IMG/VR virus record: IMGVR_UViG_3300006990_000107
Location: 1 to 31,065 of that record
DNA length: 31,065 bases
Source of the DNA: a virus
Direction: 5' to 3' (one strand)
The notes below the pieces were generated by a model that ran no database searches, was not told where the DNA came from, and worked only from the letters and a program-made list of their open reading frames with translations. The stretch's first letter is position 1; the number at the start of each line of letters is the position of its first letter. A program made the translations under genes and the position numbers. Shown piece after piece: positions 20,415 to 25,115 of this stretch.

Positions 20415-20447
20415 TACCACAAAAACCCCCATGCGTTAACATGGAGG
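20415..20447 (-). terminator. GC hairpin followed by TTTTTGTGGTA (element 1)
   Basis: On the minus strand CCTCCATG pairs with CATGGGGG (8 bp, one T-G pair) around a TTAACG loop, followed by TTTTTG and then TGGTA. It could end transcription from the 57-aa gene upstream. However, its downstream part matches the element at 22250-22284, including TTTTnGTGGTA, so it may be a dedicated processing or regulatory element rather than a plain terminator. Confidence 0.6.
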
Positions 20448-20486
20448 CGATTGTTTGAATCAACTACAATTCAGATTAATGGCTAA

Positions 20487-20660
20487 CTATATTCCCAGTG
20501 GGTAATCATCTTCTACTTCCTCATGCTCAACATCAATTGTGTTTTCTTCGTCGTCAACATTGTTTATTATATTTTGACACATAGCCATGTGGATAGCGTT
20601 GTTTCTTGTGATAGGGTCGCTTGGGTCAAACGACTCGAAAAGTTTTTGTAATATGCTCAT
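20487..20660 (-). CDS. Hypothetical acidic protein, 57 aa
   Basis: A 57-aa frame starting MSILQKLFESFDPSDPITRN and ending with a strongly acidic segment (VDDEENTIDVEHEEVEDDYP). The N-terminal half resembles an amphipathic helix plus a short DPSDPITRNNAI motif. The acidic tail could mimic DNA or bind a basic partner. No family is recognised. The ATG is preceded by the A/T-rich leader common in this block (TTTAATCAAATT). The stop is followed after 40 nt by the hairpin at 20415-20447. Composition, start context and spacing support a real gene. Confidence 0.6.
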   Translation of the reverse strand: MSILQKLFESFDPSDPITRNNAIHMAMCQNIINNVDDEENTIDVEHEEVEDDYPLGI

Positions 20661-20790
20661 AATTTGATTAAATTTTAATTATACTTGGTTTGTAAAGGTA
20701 CTATAAATATGTCATAACTGCACTGTTTTTTTTAAAAAAGATACGACAGCGTACCCAAAAAGATACGCCGTTATACCTAAAAAACGCTTG
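20661..20790 (-). other. Intergenic region with CGTATCTTTTT repeats
   Basis: A 130-nt gap. On the minus strand CGTATCTTTTT occurs twice (20764-20754 and 20736-20726). GCGTA and TACGC can pair between the copies, so a weak terminator for the 200-aa gene upstream is possible. A plus-strand TGTCATAACTG at 20709 resembles the TGTC iterons. No gene is visible. Confidence 0.3.
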
Positions 20791-21393
20791 TTACGAATTA
20801 ACAACAGAATTGCTTTCTAACACCATATCTATGAATTCTTTTATGTGTTTTTCTTCTGCATAATCATGTTCTTTCATAGCGTGTTCTAACTCCTCTCTGT
20901 CGGTTTCATCCTCGAAATTATAGTACAAGTTGTCCATCCAAGAACTGATATCATCATGGTATCTGTACTCATGATAAGTCATTTCTTGATGCTCTGTTAT
21001 TCCATGTTTGTCAAACTTAGCTATCCCAGCAAAATCTTCTCCACACTCTTCGTACTCCATCTCAGCTGTTAAGCTGTAGTGTTGACATATTTGTTTAACT
21101 AACCTTACTGGAGGACTCCATGCACTGTCTCCAGCAACAGTAAAAGTTTCTTCATCATCACATGGATAGTCATTTAGATTAAAGTCCCACCAGCGTGTTC
21201 CGTAGTAGTAAAAATCCTTATACTTTTTCTCAAGCTCCTCTTGAGTAACTCCAATCTTACCCTTGTCCAGTACGAAGTCTCCAAACTCTACGAAGTAATT
21301 GGTTTTATCATACTCCTTGAACTTGTTTCTTAGTTTTTTTAATGCAGCAGCGTTTCCATTAAACGTTACGTAATTCCAACAATTGTTTGCCAT
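20791..21393 (-). CDS. Api92/DUF1281-like ferredoxin-fold protein, 200 aa
   Basis: A 200-aa protein beginning MANNCWNYVTFNGNAAALKK. The N-x-x-N-x-(V/L)-x-(F/I) start, the internal YYGTRWWDFNL segment and the later FTVAGDSAWSPPVRLVKQIC form the pattern of Api92-like (DUF1281) proteins found in many phages and plasmids. They have a ferredoxin-like fold of unknown function. The C-terminus is acidic and helical. It follows the tRNA-like element at 21427-21466 and uses an A/T leader (AACTTAAATTAAATAAA). Family assignment rests on the W-N/W-SPP pattern. The role in infection is unknown. Confidence 0.72.
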   Translation of the reverse strand: MANNCWNYVTFNGNAAALKKLRNKFKEYDKTNYFVEFGDFVLDKGKIGVTQEELEKKYKDFYYYGTRWWDFNLNDYPCDDEETFTVAGDSAWSPPVRLVKQICQHYSLTAEMEYEECGEDFAGIAKFDKHGITEHQEMTYHEYRYHDDISSWMDNLYYNFEDETDREELEHAMKEHDYAEEKHIKEFIDMVLESNSVVNS

Positions 21394-21426
21394 TTTATTT
21401 AATTTAAGTTATGTGACTTATGTCGT

Positions 21427-21466
21427 GAATAGGGAGGAATCGAACCTCCCAAGCACCATGCTATTC
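21427..21466 (-). ncRNA. tRNA-like minihelix A (acceptor stem + T-arm only)
   Basis: Minus strand: GAATAG pairs with CTATTC (6 bp). Inside it an 11-nt linker, CATGGTGCTTG, leads straight into a T-arm with stem GGAGG/CCTCC and 7-nt loop TTCGATT. The T-arm core GGTTCGATTCC is a full match to the tRNA T-loop consensus. D and anticodon arms are absent and no CCA follows, so it cannot decode. It lies in the 78-nt gap between two minus-strand genes. It has the same size and geometry as the element at 22968-23007, which argues strongly against chance. Confidence 0.8.
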
Positions 21467-21471
21467 TGTAA

Positions 21472-21837
21472 TTATTCTGCTGGTAGCATCACTGTAATAT
21501 TATTATCCTCTACAACAATAGTACCTGTGTCTCCCCACTCTTCTCCTCTCCATTCAATCTCTCCAGTCAGCTTTAATCCCCATCCTTTAAAGATGTACTT
21601 GATTACGTACTCTAACCACTTTACGTACTCGTAGAATTTTTCTCCACCATCCCATTCTAAGTAGTATTTGCCGTCCTGCTTTGTTATCTCCCACTGCAGC
21701 CATATTGATGGCTTTCCGTTTGGCTGGTAACCATCCTCGTGGCGTTGATTAGCAAACTTCTCATACGTTTCAACCATGTCGTTTGTTAATGGTTTGTTGA
21801 ACTCTAATTGTCCTCTAAAATCTGTACTGTATCCCAT
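21472..21837 (-). CDS. Conserved phage hypothetical protein, 121 aa
   Basis: A 121-aa protein beginning MGYSTDFRGQLEFNKPLTND. The middle contains SIWLQWEITKQDGKYYLEWD and GGEKFYEYVKWLEYVIKYIF, followed by GLKLTGEIEWRGEEWGDTGT and a final beta strand (NITVMLP). The Y-STDF-G-L-F start and WDG-EKFY / L-G-I-W-GEE-DxG pattern is one I know from many phage hypothetical proteins, with no assigned activity. It looks like a single globular alpha/beta domain. The tRNA-like minihelix A begins 6 nt after its stop. Confidence 0.7.
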   Translation of the reverse strand: MGYSTDFRGQLEFNKPLTNDMVETYEKFANQRHEDGYQPNGKPSIWLQWEITKQDGKYYLEWDGGEKFYEYVKWLEYVIKYIFKGWGLKLTGEIEWRGEEWGDTGTIVVEDNNITVMLPAE

Positions 21838-21843
21838 ATCTAT

Positions 21844-21978
21844 TTATTTTAATATTAAAATTATTAATGTTACTACTACACCTACGATTCCAACAAATAT
21901 TGCAATCATGCTGTCGCTGTATTTTCTATCAGAACGTCCTTGTCTTGAACGATACTGTCTTGGTTTTTTATCTTTCAT
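21844..21978 (-). CDS. Small tail-anchored membrane protein, 44 aa
   Basis: A 44-aa frame too small for many gene callers. A very basic N-terminus (MKDKKPRQYRSRQGRSDRKY) is followed by a C-terminal transmembrane helix, MIAIFVGIVGVVVTLIILIL. By the positive-inside rule the basic part stays in the cytoplasm. It starts 4 nt after the stop of the 77-aa gene and ends 6 nt before the next ATG, so it tiles the gap. Function is unknown. A membrane-altering early protein is possible. Confidence 0.6.
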   Translation of the reverse strand: MKDKKPRQYRSRQGRSDRKYSDSMIAIFVGIVGVVVTLIILILK

Positions 21979-21981
21979 AGC

Positions 21982-22215
21982 TTACTTGTTTTTGATTGCA
22001 CTACGATTAATAAAAGTCACTATTTGATTTAGCTCGTAAATCTCATCACTACCTATTCTTTGACTCCAGTCCAGTATTCCTTTGACTGCAGCTCTGACTT
22101 CATTTAAGTCTTTACGTAATGATTTTACTTTCTTTTGAGACTCTAAATAGTCTCCCATTAATTCAGTGATTCTGTTGAAATCTCTGTCTTTTTGTGTTTC
22201 TTGATAACTGCTCAT
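21982..22215 (-). CDS. Hypothetical helical protein, 77 aa
   Basis: A 77-aa protein beginning MSSYQETQKDRDFNRITELM. It is mostly helical with heptad-like spacing (YLESQKKVKSLRKDLNEVRA), suggesting a short coiled coil. It ends LNQIVTFINRSAIKNK. No family is recognised. The ATG is preceded by AACTTAAATTTAATACA, nearly identical to the leader of groEL, and by a small GGCA-ATAA-TGCC hairpin. Upstream of that lies the GC hairpin at 22250-22284. Confidence 0.65.
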   Translation of the reverse strand: MSSYQETQKDRDFNRITELMGDYLESQKKVKSLRKDLNEVRAAVKGILDWSQRIGSDEIYELNQIVTFINRSAIKNK

Positions 22216-22249
22216 TGTATTAAATTTAAGTTATGGCATTATTGCCTTT

Positions 22250-22284
22250 TACCACCAAAACCCCACTCCGTTTTGGAAGTGAGG
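22250..22284 (-). terminator. GC hairpin followed by TTTTGGTGGTA (element 2)
   Basis: On the minus strand CCTCACTTC pairs with GGAGTGGGG (9 bp including two T-G pairs) around a CAAAAC loop, then TTTTGGTGGTA. It could terminate transcription after the 74-aa gene. The T-rich run is short. The downstream sequence and the T-G third pair match the element at 20415-20447, so both seem to belong to one repeated family. Confidence 0.55.
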
Positions 22285-22310
22285 TAGGTGTGTTTAGGGA
22301 TCTTTTTATT

Positions 22311-22535
22311 TCACTCTTTGCTCTCTGTTATAGCTTGCTCAATATCATCAATTGTACTTTGTGAAAGTATGTCCCATATGCATACTCCACAGTGCGTGAC
22401 AGCTGTAATATTTATCTCAGCTGGACTACCACAATAGTCATGCGTCTGAGGTTCAGCGTGTGCATACTCATAGTATACATCAAGCTCTATGTCATCCACT
22501 TTGTAAGTGAATGTTTCGTCATTCCAAATGCTCAT
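22311..22535 (-). CDS. Hypothetical protein, 74 aa
   Basis: A 74-aa acidic protein. The start chosen is the internal methionine (MSIWNDETFTYKVDDIELDV) because its ATG overlaps the stop of the upstream lipoprotein gene as ATGA. The first possible ATG, at 22544, would overlap more. The body contains YYEYAHAEPQTHDYCGSPAE and NITAVTHCGVCIWDILSQ. The two cysteines in HCGVC and the upstream DYCG could bind metal, but no known family is evident. The C-terminus is an acidic helix (IDDIEQAITESKE). Confidence 0.65.
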   Translation of the reverse strand: MSIWNDETFTYKVDDIELDVYYEYAHAEPQTHDYCGSPAEINITAVTHCGVCIWDILSQSTIDDIEQAITESKE

Positions 22536-22699
22536 CGTCCCCATTTTGATTTTTTGTGTTTTTTACTGGACTTCCAGTAGTTATTCTTTGCCCATTTTTT
22601 CTTCATCTTGGAGGTCTTACATCGCTTTGAACTTCCACAGCTCGTTAACGTGGGTGTAGCTATAAGCATACACATCACAAACATTAAAATCTTCTTCAT
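22532..22699 (-). CDS. Tiny basic lipoprotein, 55 aa
   Basis: A 55-aa frame with a clear lipoprotein signal peptide: MKK, a hydrophobic core (ILMFVMCMLIATPT) and the lipobox LTSC with Cys21. The predicted mature part is about 35 residues, extremely rich in Lys, Ser and Trp (for example KMKKKWAKNNYWKSSKKHKK). It would be anchored in the envelope with a basic chain facing the periplasm or surface. The gene starts one base after the 76-aa gene stop, and its TGA overlaps the next ATG. Candidate roles are superinfection exclusion or envelope modification. No family is recognised. Confidence 0.7.
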   Translation of the reverse strand: MKKILMFVMCMLIATPTLTSCGSSKRCKTSKMKKKWAKNNYWKSSKKHKKSKWGR

Positions 22700-22700
22700 A

Positions 22701-22931
22701 TTATAGTTGTTTTAATTGGTTAATACTATCACTGAAATCTACTCCAGCAATCACATTTCCTTCCATTTCCACCCACTGGTCATGTGTTTTGTAGCCTACA
22801 CGCACATAAATAATAGACTCTAATGACTCTACATTTGTTCCGTTGATACTGCATACTAATCTCATTTCTTCCTCGGTTGCGATGGTCATTACATCGTCCC
22901 ATACTTGATTGAATTTGTCTTTGTTACTCAT
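22701..22931 (-). CDS. Hypothetical protein, 76 aa
   Basis: A 76-aa protein beginning MSNKDKFNQVWDDVMTIATE. An upstream ATG at 22955 exists. However, the start at 22931 sits behind ACTACAATT and reads ATGAGTAA, exactly like the 164-aa gene, so I prefer it. The rest (EEMRLVCSINGTNVESLESI, then YVRVGYKTHDQWVEMEGNVI) looks like a small alpha/beta fold. No family is recognised. It is the first gene after tRNA-like minihelix B. Confidence 0.65.
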   Translation of the reverse strand: MSNKDKFNQVWDDVMTIATEEEMRLVCSINGTNVESLESIIYVRVGYKTHDQWVEMEGNVIAGVDFSDSINQLKQL

Positions 22932-22967
22932 AATTGTAGTTTTAAATATCTGCATTATTGCATTGAT

Positions 22968-23007
22968 ACTGGAGAAGGAATCGAACCTTGCTTACAACCA
23001 TTCCAGT
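22968..23007 (-). ncRNA. tRNA-like minihelix B (acceptor stem + T-arm only)
   Basis: Minus strand: ACTGGA pairs with TCCAGT (6 bp). It encloses the 11-nt linker ATGGTTGTAAG and a T-arm with loop TTCGATT. The T stem is CAAGG/CCTTC, four pairs plus a C-C mismatch at its base. The core GGTTCGATTCC is identical to that of minihelix A, and stem, linker and loop lengths are identical (40 nt in total). Both linkers contain ATGGT. D and anticodon arms and CCA are absent. It sits between the 164-aa and 76-aa genes. Confidence 0.8.
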
Positions 23008-23024
23008 TAGTCTGACAGCGTGTG

Positions 23025-23519
23025 CTAAACCTTGTAGCTATAGTTCTCTGCTACCCATGTACATAAAGTCTCTCTATTGCCCTCTGACAGCTCCATGAAC
23101 AGGTTAAATACATTAGCAGTTCCACCATGACCATTTCTCTTGTTGAGGTTCTGCCATTTAGCCTCTATATGATTAGCCAGTGACGTACCCTCTCCAAAAG
23201 CTTTTTGTATCCATCCAGTTGGGAAGTTATACGCAAAGTACATGAAGTTAGTAATCGAGTCAGCTGCAGCATCTCTCTTCTCTTCTTCTTCATCATACTC
23301 GTCATACCATTCTGTCCATATGTACAGCTCCTGCTCGTGTGCATCGTCCAGTATGAACTCATCAGAGCAGTCAGTGTATGCTTCTTTGTAGTTCTCTTTC
23401 AACCAAGCTACTAAGCTGGTTTCATCTTTAATGGTTTCATCATTGTGCAGAAGGTAACCTTCATACATTCCTGCTCCAGTGATAATACATGTTCTTGGTT
23501 CTTTGTTTAAATTACTCAT
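23025..23519 (-). CDS. Hypothetical acidic protein, 164 aa
   Basis: A 164-aa acidic protein beginning MSNLNKEPRTCIITGAGMYE and continuing GYLLHNDETIKDE. A central part holds a DEYDEEEEKRD run, and the C-terminus contains RNGHGGTANVFNLFMELSEG. TCIITGAGMYEGY resembles other short phage early proteins, but I cannot assign a family or activity. Its ATG is 22 nt downstream of the predicted hammerhead cleavage site at 23542/23541, with leader ACTACAATT. Its stop is followed by tRNA-like minihelix B. Both ends of this mRNA are therefore bounded by RNA-processing candidates. Confidence 0.7.
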   Translation of the reverse strand: MSNLNKEPRTCIITGAGMYEGYLLHNDETIKDETSLVAWLKENYKEAYTDCSDEFILDDAHEQELYIWTEWYDEYDEEEEKRDAAADSITNFMYFAYNFPTGWIQKAFGEGTSLANHIEAKWQNLNKRNGHGGTANVFNLFMELSEGNRETLCTWVAENYSYKV

Positions 23520-23535
23520 AATTGTAGTTTTTAAT

Positions 23536-23585
23536 GATTAAGACGCTTCACAGCGTTTCGACTATTTAAGTCTCGTCAGTTAATC
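23536..23585 (-). ncRNA. Type I hammerhead ribozyme 1
   Basis: All invariant parts are present in order on the minus strand. Stem I is closed by GATTAA and TTAATC (6 bp). The core is CTGACGA. Stem II is GACT/AGTC with a TAAAT loop. The second core is GAAA. Stem III is CGCT/AGCG with a GTGA tetraloop, followed by the cleavage triplet GTC. The ends open in stem I, so it is type I. Beyond an internal bulge, stem I may extend by a further GTTTTT/AAAAAC pairing, which would give the stem I-stem II loop contact used by fast hammerheads. Predicted cleavage lies after the C at 23542. The motif overlaps the stop of the 85-aa gene. Confidence 0.9.
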
Positions 23586-23823
23586 TTTGAAAAACCAGCA
23601 TACTCTTTTGAGTATAAAGAATTTTCTCCTCCAGTGCCGACAGCACGTCATACATCATGTGTCTTTGTGTAGCATCATGAGTTACGTTCTTCTCGATTAG
23701 CTTGTACATAAGAAGTCCTACGTCTTCAGCACTTAAGCTATCCACTTGGTCTTGCCAGTCTACGTTTGTAAGTTCAACTGAAGACATTAATTGTTTGATT
23801 TGTGATTCTTTGGTATTTTCCAT
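23566..23823 (-). CDS. Hypothetical helical protein, 85 aa
   Basis: An 85-aa acidic, mostly helical protein beginning MENTKESQIKQLMSSVELTN. VDWQDQVDSLSAEDVGLLMY and HMMYDVLSALEEKILYTQ segments resemble a small helical bundle. No family is recognised. The start follows the leader CACTTAAATTTAAACAC. The last codons (RLTDET and the stop) are also the 5' part of hammerhead 1, so stem I, the CTGACGA core and stem II are under double constraint. Self-cleavage would cut 24 nt beyond the stop and leave this gene intact. Confidence 0.65.
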   Translation of the reverse strand: MENTKESQIKQLMSSVELTNVDWQDQVDSLSAEDVGLLMYKLIEKNVTHDATQRHMMYDVLSALEEKILYTQKSMLVFQRLTDET

Positions 23824-23845
23824 GTGTTTAAATTTAAGTGATTAA

Positions 23846-24061
23846 TTATATCCATTGTTTTGATTCCTGTAATTCTGTAATCTTCTCTTGCATCTCATTG
23901 ATGACATCAAATAGCTCTGACCACTGGTCATCGTCTTGTAAATATTCATCTTCGATATGCTCCAGTACTAAGTTACACTGCGTGTCTAACTTGTTGATTT
24001 CTGTGCGTACATATTCTTCTGTCTCTATTTTAGAGATTGTTTTGAAAAGCTTGTTACTCAT
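23846..24061 (-). CDS. Hypothetical acidic coiled-coil protein, 71 aa
   Basis: A 71-aa protein beginning MSNKLFKTISKIETEEYVRT. It is highly charged and acidic, with DTQCNLVLEHIEDEYLQDDD and FDVINEMQEKITELQES segments that predict long helices. No family is recognised. It starts 2 nt after the stop of the 46-aa gene and shares the ATGAGTAA start context with its neighbours. A 22-nt A/T leader separates it from the next gene, with no folded element in the gap. Confidence 0.6.
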   Translation of the reverse strand: MSNKLFKTISKIETEEYVRTEINKLDTQCNLVLEHIEDEYLQDDDQWSELFDVINEMQEKITELQESKQWI

Positions 24062-24063
24062 GA

Positions 24064-24204
24064 TTAAAATGGATTAGATGTTACGAAATAGCTTAGTGCT
24101 ATTACATTTTTCTTTACTTGTTCTAATTCGTACAGCTTTTGAGCTGTCTTGATTAATGCACAGTCAATACGTACATACTTAATTACTGTTTTTGATTTAC
24201 TCAT
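24064..24204 (-). CDS. Hypothetical small protein, 46 aa
   Basis: A 46-aa frame, MSKSKTVIKYVRIDCALIKT with the continuation AQKLYELEQVKKNVIALSYF, predicted to be mainly helical and basic. The leader CAACTACA plus ATGAGTAA matches the starts of the 76-aa and 164-aa genes. It begins 22 nt downstream of the hammerhead 2 cleavage site (24227/24226) and ends 2 nt before the next ATG. Leader match and tiling support a real gene. No family is recognised. Confidence 0.6.
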   Translation of the reverse strand: MSKSKTVIKYVRIDCALIKTAQKLYELEQVKKNVIALSYFVTSNPF

Positions 24205-24220
24205 TGTAGTTGAATTTTAA

Positions 24221-24270
24221 AGTTAAGACGCCTCTCGGCGTTTCGTCCTATATGGACTCATCAGTTAACT
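24221..24270 (-). ncRNA. Type I hammerhead ribozyme 2
   Basis: A textbook hammerhead on the minus strand. Stem I is AGTTAA with TTAACT (6 bp). The core is CTGATGA. Stem II is GTCC/GGAC with an ATATA loop. The second core is GAAA. Stem III is CGCC/GGCG with a GAGA tetraloop (GNRA type), and the cleavage triplet is GTC. It is the same size (50 nt) and topology as hammerhead 1, but stems II and III differ in sequence while pairing is kept, which is good comparative support. Predicted cleavage lies after the C at 24227. It starts at the stop codon of the 124-aa gene. Confidence 0.93.
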
Positions 24271-24643
24271 ATAGACTTAGACCTGCGAACTTCTCCAGCT
24301 CTGCCCAGTCTTTACCAGCATCGCTTTTGGTTTTTGCTTCTTGGTATTTTCCGAGTATTCTTCCCATCTCAACCGATACCTGTGGTTCCATGGATGATGC
24401 TGACATTACACTTTTACCTCTTGCATTAGTCACAGAAAAACCCCATGTTCTAACTCCGTGTCTTAGTACGTCCAGTGGACACACATTCATCCAGTATCTA
24501 AGTGTCATTGTAAACTCTGGAGTGCTTACTTTAATCGACCATACATTGTCCTTAGCTGTCATGGTTACATTGCATGCTGCTTTAGATAGTAATGTGTTTA
24601 ACACTTTGATTTCATCTCTGTTACTTAGTTGTTGTTTACTCAT
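24269..24643 (-). CDS. Hypothetical protein, 124 aa
   Basis: A 124-aa protein beginning MSKQQLSNRDEIKVLNTLLS, then KAACNVTMTAKDNVWSIKVS. It includes FTMTLRYWMNVCPLDVLRHG, RTWGFSVTNARGKSV and a helical C-terminus ending FAGLSL. It looks like a single alpha/beta domain. No family is recognised. An ATG four codons upstream (24655) is possible, but the ATGAGTAA context at 24643 matches neighbouring genes. It is the first gene of the small-gene block. A three-way-junction RNA element lies 35 nt upstream, and hammerhead 2 begins at its stop. Confidence 0.65.
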   Translation of the reverse strand: MSKQQLSNRDEIKVLNTLLSKAACNVTMTAKDNVWSIKVSTPEFTMTLRYWMNVCPLDVLRHGVRTWGFSVTNARGKSVMSASSMEPQVSVEMGRILGKYQEAKTKSDAGKDWAELEKFAGLSL

Positions 24644-24678
24644 AGTTGATTGCATAATAATTAAATTTAAAAGTTAGT

Positions 24679-24726
24679 TATCGGTACGAGTATTGCTCTC
24701 GCTGGTCTGTCAATCAGATACCGATA
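24679..24726 (-). ncRNA. Compact three-way-junction RNA element
   Basis: On the minus strand the outer stem TATCGGTA/TACCGATA (8 bp) encloses two hairpins, TCTG-ATTGA-CAGA and CGAG-AGCAATA-CTCG, joined by CCAG. It lies 35 nt upstream of the 124-aa gene, in the same relative place as the hammerheads and minihelices further along. It lacks hammerhead core bases. Eight perfect outer pairs plus two inner stems in 48 nt is unlikely to be random, but no family is recognised. Confidence 0.5.
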
Positions 24727-24972
24727 TTAGTGTCGTAAATTTCACTCTCAAGGCTCGCACATTAACTCCATCCACAGATGGTTAAAGAGATGTCAGTCGC
24801 TCTACAGAATCCTCAATTAAGGGATGCCAATCTTTTATCCTTGAAATCATTTTTACTTTATGTAAGACCTATGAACACCTTGGTGCTAACTACTTCGCTT
24901 GATAGATATGGATAGAGAGATAATCATAACAGAATCGTTAAGTGATTGATTATCAGCAGTCTGCGTGAAGCA

Positions 24973-25009
24973 CAGTTAAAGCAACACTTTAGATAATGTG
25001 TTGTAACTG
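24973..25009. other. Long imperfect hairpin
   Basis: CAGTTA (24973-24978) pairs with TAACTG (25004-25009), and CAACAC (24982-24987) with GTGTTG (24998-25003). There is a three-base AAG bulge on one side and a 10-nt loop. That makes twelve base pairs in total. It is not followed by a T-run on either strand, so it is not a simple terminator. It may be part of a structured leader or the origin region. Confidence 0.5.
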
Positions 25010-25115
25010 CTTGATTCTCAGTAGTTTAGGTCAGAATGTCAATGAACGTGAGGTTTCCCCTCAAGGCAAATATACAACATAATGTTAATATAACTACTAT
25101 AAATTTAAAATAACT

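Follow-up and report, generated by a model that had tools for sequence, protein, structure and literature searches.

Hammerheads and anticodon-less mini-tRNAs as candidate cutting marks at the gene borders of long phage transcripts

The stretch of marine phage DNA analysed here (the window) is an entire IMG/VR virus record of 31,065 bases. It encodes a chaperonin and, for phage replication, a Sak annealing protein and an SNF2-type helicase. On its minus strand, from 25.06 to 20.4 kb, a series of small genes carries at its gene borders two kinds of RNA element: type I hammerhead ribozymes, and tRNA-like structures of ~43 nucleotides (nt) in which the anticodon arm is absent, here called mini-tRNAs. 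We propose, with a probability of about 0.62, that both are cutting marks at the gene borders of long phage transcripts; the best reading is that they are two independent, sometimes interchangeable marks. The hammerhead half of this proposal, phage arrays as well as the idea that they cut mRNA, is already known, having been published in 2011. The mini-tRNA, as far as literature searches reach, appears to be an undescribed RNA element with tRNA geometry located at gene borders; no description of anticodon-less mini-tRNAs was found in open-access PMC papers.

The initial annotation had listed seven folded elements on the minus strand of the small-gene run: a three-way junction, two hammerheads, two tRNA-like minihelices (A and B) and two GC hairpins. 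On direct reading of the sequence all seven were found, both minihelices included. The gaps said to lack an element are generally short, with the exception of one large gap (20790-20661) that had gone unlisted. The two predicted hammerhead cut sites were reproduced exactly by our own caller, which requires the core, three stems and an NUH site. Hammerhead 2 (24221..24270, minus strand) scores 35.9 bits with Rfam Hammerhead_1 (gathering cut-off 34), and its predicted cut, 24227/24226, lies 22 nt 5' of the ATG at 24204. Hammerhead 1 (23536..23585, minus strand) scores 30.0 bits (E 2e-4), below the cut-off; its predicted cut, 23542/23541, is likewise 22 nt 5' of an ATG, at 23519, and the upstream open reading frame (ORF; 23823-23566) terminates inside it. 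Both contain the CUGANGA and GAAA core, three stems, an NUH cut site and an open stem I, and are, as judged from their sequences, type I hammerheads with intact cores that are predicted to self-cleave. The hammerhead at the hammerhead 1 border of a relative (L041:2532-2606) is possibly weak: stem II begins with a T-T mismatch, and the cut site reads GTA.

Our caller made 208 calls on all loci, overlapping loci being counted separately, versus 0 on reversed sequence, and 0 calls on 25 unrelated viral contigs. A strict hammerhead pattern scan of viral contigs gave at least 119 stretches. Among the matches listed, 127 were distinct (window relatives included), and in 110 of these (86.6%) the predicted cut falls 15-30 nt before an ATG, versus 10.5% for random positions. 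In 109 of the same 127 matches the upstream stop codon ends at most 8 nt away from where the pattern begins, a proximity that is partly built in, since the pattern itself contains TAA and TGA. Excerpts of Perreault et al. 2011 (PMC3088659) describe clustered hammerheads between prophage genes, propose that they cut mRNA to gene length, and report that three phage hammerhead arrays cut in vitro. Compared with those type I hammerheads (Rfam RF00163), the ones described here have the same core, architecture and clustering at gene borders, and differ in that cut-to-ATG spacing was measured on the 127 matches listed and that the operon is shared with mini-tRNAs. Self-cutting by such a hammerhead would give a downstream mRNA with a 5'-OH and an A/T leader of ~22 nt.

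Mini-tRNA A (21426..21467) and mini-tRNA B (22967..23008), both on the minus strand, have a layout in common, made up of acceptor stem, short UGG-containing linker and T-arm. They score 43.1 and 45.8 bits, respectively, with covariance model R1 (below), but each is itself an R1 seed. Folding thermodynamics alone was rejected as proof of mini-tRNAs, because single-sequence folding is only weakly better than that of shuffles (z -1.68 for A and -0.65 for B); the evidence for both is therefore comparative. A small hairpin, GACATAAGTC, read from the sequence, lies 3' of mini-tRNA A (21415..21424, minus strand). Another, TGCAATAATGCA, lies directly 3' of mini-tRNA B (22951..22962, minus strand), and relatives carry TGCCAATATTGGCA, GGCAATTAAGCC and GGCAAATAAGCC in its place. 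That mini-tRNAs are ordinary tRNAs was likewise rejected, the anticodon arm and cloverleaf being absent: ARAGORN called 0 tRNAs in the window and, over 60 loci, made one call overlapping a mini-tRNA (tRNA-Phe, L223), and the Rfam tRNA model gave no match on mini-tRNAs in 12 loci at cut-off and in 3 loci at E<=1. No Rfam family matched the mini-tRNAs at cut-off in the loci searched; with the Rfam tmRNA models, applied to three loci at E<=1, one partial match (17 nt, 13.4 bits) fell within a mini-tRNA of L223.

The mini-tRNA consists of an acceptor stem of 5-7 base pairs (bp), a tiny D-like hairpin (YA-UGG-UY') and the T-arm, and a loose scanner found the same layout, built of quite different stems, in unrelated phages. 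Two pattern scans with the acceptor left free gave 66 and at least 119 stretches. The patterns fixed A-UGG-U; the acceptor stem and the 3' tail were absent from them. All seven of seven acceptor pairs were formed in 16 of 62 and 45 of 102 matches listed, versus 10 of 310 and 16 of 505 chimeras. The linker is a two-pair hairpin, Y-A-UGG-U-Y', in which Y-Y', among the 134 good matches listed, is G-C in 51, C-G in 34, T-A in 24 and something else in 25. Model R1 was built from 20 seeds, which had been picked for pairing. Alignment A1 has 89.8% of cells paired, double changes at 13 of 15 pairs and a covariation score of 0.80, versus 0.18 for shuffles; alignment A5 (84 distinct rows), which was fitted to the model, has 93.8% paired and double changes at 13 of 14. 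Independent support for the predicted fold comes from the chimera test and, with the qualification that it is model-fitted, from A5. A covariance search, which the initial annotation had suggested, found mini-tRNAs with R1 in many unrelated phages, often in arrays. Matches of 15-20 bits (for example in L059, L034 and L024) were neither accepted nor rejected. Among representatives found outside the scan patterns, 54 of 62 have GG in the linker.

In named phages, which carry independent annotation, mini-tRNAs lie mostly between genes. Gordonia phage VanLee has 16 full-length matches, all on one strand and 16/16 in gaps between annotated genes. In its operon at 71.5-81.5 kb, model matches occur at 15 of the 16 junctions of 60 nt or more and at 0 of the 14 shorter junctions; the sixteenth long gap contains, by eye, a mini-tRNA with a longer D hairpin. 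Of random 43-nt placements in this operon, 11.4% would land in gaps. The upstream stop codon is 2-34 nt from the 5' foot of the element in 13 of 15 cases. Phage ObLaDi has 8 of its 9 matches in gaps, where one of the eight touches the final base of the preceding gene, and BLAST found an intergenic element in Sheen, SWU2, Dagobah, MakoManhole, Phlei and BF1-TP2. Among the unannotated loci, L288 has ten mini-tRNAs in 4 kb, mostly at successive gene borders, and by eye the hairpins that come after them covary. L237, the DNA of which has zero matches to named phages, has eight, and several other loci have three to five. Placement in unannotated loci rests on our own rough gene calls; an ATG is found within 60 nt after 79% of the 134 elements listed, versus 40% for random positions. 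In one case (L315:729-771, phage George 50808-50850) the mini-tRNA lies ~800 nt before the first annotated gene, in contrast to the usual short leader. The multicopy genomes, with the 16 full-length matches of VanLee and 11 matches in total in the L288 record, would suit small RNAs that are released and work in trans, as decoys either for enzymes that bind tRNA or for host defences that target it. Such decoys, however, would have no need to sit at long operon borders only and at none of the short ones, and we give this explanation little chance.

The register of the elements is that of a tRNA. For this count 345 matches were entered (8 further R1 matches were not, VanLee 76249-76284 and the weakest ObLaDi match, 75630-75674, are omitted, and three matches below 36 nt had been dropped). 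After removal of matches near locus ends, without a recognisable T-loop or duplicated, 281 elements were left, 275 with an acceptor of at least 4 bp. In tRNA the acceptor and T-stem have 7+5 bp; in the mini-tRNAs they add up to 12 or 13 bp in 233 of the 275 non-redundant elements and to 11 bp in 31, so that in 233 the stack of acceptor and T-stem, with its T-loop, is as long as in tRNA. Where the helix measures 12 bp, a purine occupies position 73 in 120 of 138 elements and C comes after it in 123 of 138; where it measures 13 bp, the base directly after the helix is C in 85 of 95, the same register as C74. Counted from the T-loop, the 14th base (C74 of a 3' RCCA) is C in 83 of 109 cluster representatives, and the neighbouring bases, position 75 included, vary. 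According to passages of PMC4919913 and PMC11143913, RNase P measures the distance from the elbow to the cleavage site, pairs with the 3' end of the tRNA, and cleaves model substrates made of an acceptor and T-arm. Helix length and C74 of the mini-tRNAs are the geometry that RNase P measures, and from this we infer that RNase P cleaves them.

RNase P punctuation is the mechanism that we favour for the mini-tRNAs, and we judge it somewhat better than an even bet. A mini-tRNA would offer the acceptor/T-arm stack, the D-loop-like GG and C74, as found on real tRNA precursors. Because these are the features that the bacterial enzyme measures, host RNase P would cut at the acceptor's 5' foot, which in most cases lies between a few bases and ~30 beyond the upstream stop codon. 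A further cut, made by RNase Z after position 73, may release the mini-tRNA, and the next mRNA would then keep a small hairpin near its 5' end. The outcome would be gene-sized mRNAs with separately tunable ends, and possibly with altered stability, as in mitochondrial tRNA punctuation.

Alternatively, the mini-tRNAs may be end structures that are never cut, protecting the 3' ends of upstream mRNAs or capping the 5' ends of downstream ones so as to slow exonucleases, with RNase E, Y or J cutting elsewhere. The closeness of the upstream stop codon in VanLee fits this, as does a second hairpin 3' of the mini-tRNA in 56 of 130 AT-rich and 65 of 145 GC-rich elements (9.8% and 18.7%, respectively, in shuffles). 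Yet a plain hairpin would suffice for such a role, which leaves the T-loop, the UGG loop, the length of 12-13 bp and the C74 register unexplained, and we consider it unlikely. In L288:2943-6965, L223 and L064 the small hairpin often stands a few bases past the mini-tRNA, like a second part of the element. It might also be argued, given the tRNA-like T-arm and the ARAGORN call in L223, that the elements are functionless, decayed tRNA genes or remnants of integration sites; the compensatory changes in all three stems, the intact register and the placement at borders make the chance of this negligible.

Punctuation by RNase P would not be without parallel. In mitochondrial transcripts, tRNA units serve as processing signals for RNase P, and the tRNA-like domain of tmRNA, in which the D region is reduced, has both an acceptor and a T-arm. 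The mini-tRNAs resemble that domain in acceptor and T-arm and differ from it in standing alone at gene borders. The t-elements of plant mitochondria are described, in excerpts of PMC4919922, as tRNA-like transcript units that act as RNase P processing signals. In comparison with mitochondrial tRNA punctuation and with the t-elements, the phage units, as candidate cleavage sites, are ~43 nt long, have no anticodon arm and occur many to an operon. From RNase P model substrates, as passages of PMC11143913 present them, with nearly the same fold, they differ in being natural and genomic and in having the UGG mini-D hairpin.

Mini-tRNA matches were also found in prokaryote genomes. When 84,980 of these were scanned by pattern, 67 stretches were obtained. 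R1 matches 50 of them, and apart from one in Hymenobacter these 50 come from Actinomycetota (for example Streptomyces and Nonomuraea); the remaining 17, all from outside Actinomycetota, gave no R1 match and are probably chance. Arrays of near-identical mini-tRNAs were seen in Nonomuraea genomes (L342:4109-5752, L340 and L328). The halovirus HSTV-2 (L420) has one weak full-length R1 match (56117-56158; 20.4 bits, E 0.0045), located between genes 89 and 90 and followed by a hairpin, a hint that mini-tRNAs may also exist in archaeal viruses. Two partial matches lie near 45.5 and 61.2 kb of the same virus, the one at 45.5 kb inside an annotated gene. R1 gave no match in T4 at E<=0.01, in OLIVR1 at E<=0.05, in lambda and phiC31 at E<=0.1, or in 25 unrelated viral contigs (231 kb) at E<=1; Wentworth and Shamal gave weak matches only (E<=0.05), and D29 three partial T-arm matches only (E<=0.1).

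We compared the window with its relatives, in which the initial annotation had expected the same elements at the same borders. Hammerhead 2 is retained in 7 of 8 distinct rows despite a changed upstream gene, GC hairpin 2 in 12 of 13 rows and GC hairpin 1 in 6 of 6. Mini-tRNA B is retained in 6 rows before gene 22931 and in 4 before gene 22699, and mini-tRNA A in 10 of 12 rows of at least 66% protein identity and in 0 of 4 distant rows. Hammerhead 1 is retained in 5 of 10 relatives (one degenerate; three distant rows not counted). The outcome that the initial annotation had named as refuting, relatives without the elements at these borders, was thus observed in part: hammerhead 1 is missing in 5 of the 10 relatives and mini-tRNA A in 2 of the 12 close rows. 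The loci that lack hammerhead 1 (L005, L010, L011, L012 and L067) keep a leader nearly equal to its predicted 3' product, and BLAST matches of the window to these five loci stop exactly at 23541; genes seem to have been exchanged at this cut site. Window gene 23519, which follows hammerhead 1, has in L288 a homologue (43% over 65 aa) that sits after a mini-tRNA. Such border swaps, in which a gene preceded by a hammerhead has a homologue elsewhere preceded by a mini-tRNA, were found for 8 ORFs out of 36 homologues. After removal of 10 ORFs that are themselves hammerhead-preceded, a removal chosen post hoc, the count is 8 of 26 (p 0.011). For this reason, and because some alignments are short or below 30% identity, the swapping of the two elements before homologous genes is suggestive only.

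Several observations weigh against the view that both kinds are cutting marks at gene borders. Elements are lost at some borders while the A/T leader persists. The enrichment of border swaps is weak (8 of 36 versus 108 of 871, p 0.066). The ninth ObLaDi match overlaps gp146, and the element of phage Journey13 overlaps annotated genes. Placement in the unannotated loci is less clean, 81 of the 134 elements listed lying in a same-strand open frame of at least 60 codons (84% for random positions). Mini-tRNA B, whose T-stem contains a C-C mismatch, folds poorly by itself, and C75 is not conserved, although of the 10 elements shown for L288, 9 have a full CCA. Finally, the two kinds occur mostly in different phages: a hammerhead call was made in 15 of the 183 loci matching a mini-tRNA pattern, window relatives included (294 viral scan loci), and an R1 match of at least 25 bits was found in 16 of the 114 hammerhead-scan loci searched (of 118), several of these being relatives of each other or of the window. 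As the loci are fragments, these counts are lower bounds. Hammerheads and mini-tRNAs can share a phage, and mostly do not; co-occurrence was accordingly rejected as proof of a single system. That all seven elements of the window form one system, as had been suggested, is not supported, given the terminator-like GC hairpins, the junction that belongs to a leader RNA, and the two cutting kinds that are mostly apart. The suggested mRNA processing is supported for the hammerheads and minihelices, which lie at gene borders, here and in many phages, with the spacing that cutting marks would need.

A wider version of our proposal is tentative, and we place it a little short of even. In it, phages of Bacteroidota and Actinomycetota, and possibly haloarchaeal viruses, would use undescribed anticodon-less mini-tRNAs as punctuation for host RNase P, interchangeably with hammerheads, and operons would be made of gene cassettes bounded by, and exchanged at, these marks. 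Since the mini-tRNAs look tailored to the enzyme with which the host cleaves tRNA precursors, phages may be using its tRNA processing for cuts at gene borders. If so, a host enzyme known for maturing tRNAs has phage mRNAs among its substrates and cuts them at many gene borders, a natural minimal substrate of RNase P is present in many phages, there is one more RNA family to annotate, and the junctions of the VanLee operon, which are either short or about 80-180 nt, are explained. As several carriers are named phages that grow on laboratory hosts (Mycobacterium smegmatis for Sheen, SWU2 and George; Gordonia rubripertincta for VanLee and ObLaDi), the idea is directly testable.

The GC hairpins bear on the explanation that the elements are transcription terminators or attenuators and not processing sites. 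GC hairpin 1 (20425..20448, minus strand) was found by the terminator scan, has a T5 tail, shows compensatory variation of its stem in L041 and L047, and looks like a terminator. GC hairpin 2 (22284-22261) is followed by T4 and by a small hairpin, GGCAATAATGCC (22246-22235), the whole spanning 22235..22284 on the minus strand; having four T only, it was not called by the terminator scan and resembles a terminator weakly. Tandem terminator-like hairpins (20739..20771, minus strand), found by the scan and unlisted in the initial annotation, also fit, and the scan lists the stem III hairpin of hammerhead 2 (24241-24228) as terminator-like. For the mini-tRNAs, however, no T-tracts follow in the examples shown, and both cutting kinds lie inside co-directional operons with scant room, as judged from spacing, for a new promoter before the next gene; termination as a general explanation has a slim chance at best.

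At the head of the operon, reaching to the first ATG, lies a conserved noncoding leader RNA of ~400 nt (24656..25062, minus strand), as seen in alignments A3 and A7 with L007, L008, L041, L022 and L310. Its start at 25062 was guessed from a promoter-like sequence, TATATTTG, at 25074-25067, for which we assume the promoter consensus TAnnTTTG. Of 86 predicted pairs, 15 have double changes among six sequences; the single-sequence fold is unremarkable (z -1.0). The divergent phage L022 matches the leader region at 73% over 454 nt, and the core motif occurs in nine IMG/VR stretches, several of them close relatives. Rfam gave no match to the leader above cut-off, and DNA searches of the leader and of the window region against named phages gave zero matches. 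The three-way junction (24679..24726, minus strand) is the 3' domain of this leader; covarying pairs are seen in few sequences, among them P3, where CGAG/CTCG becomes TAGG/CCTA in L022 and L041. In PHROGs, the operon proteins matched solely families of unknown function, five of the ten proteins tried being without any family. Within the operon, in the minus-strand gap 20790-20661, the tandem terminator-like hairpins are followed by a promoter-like stretch.

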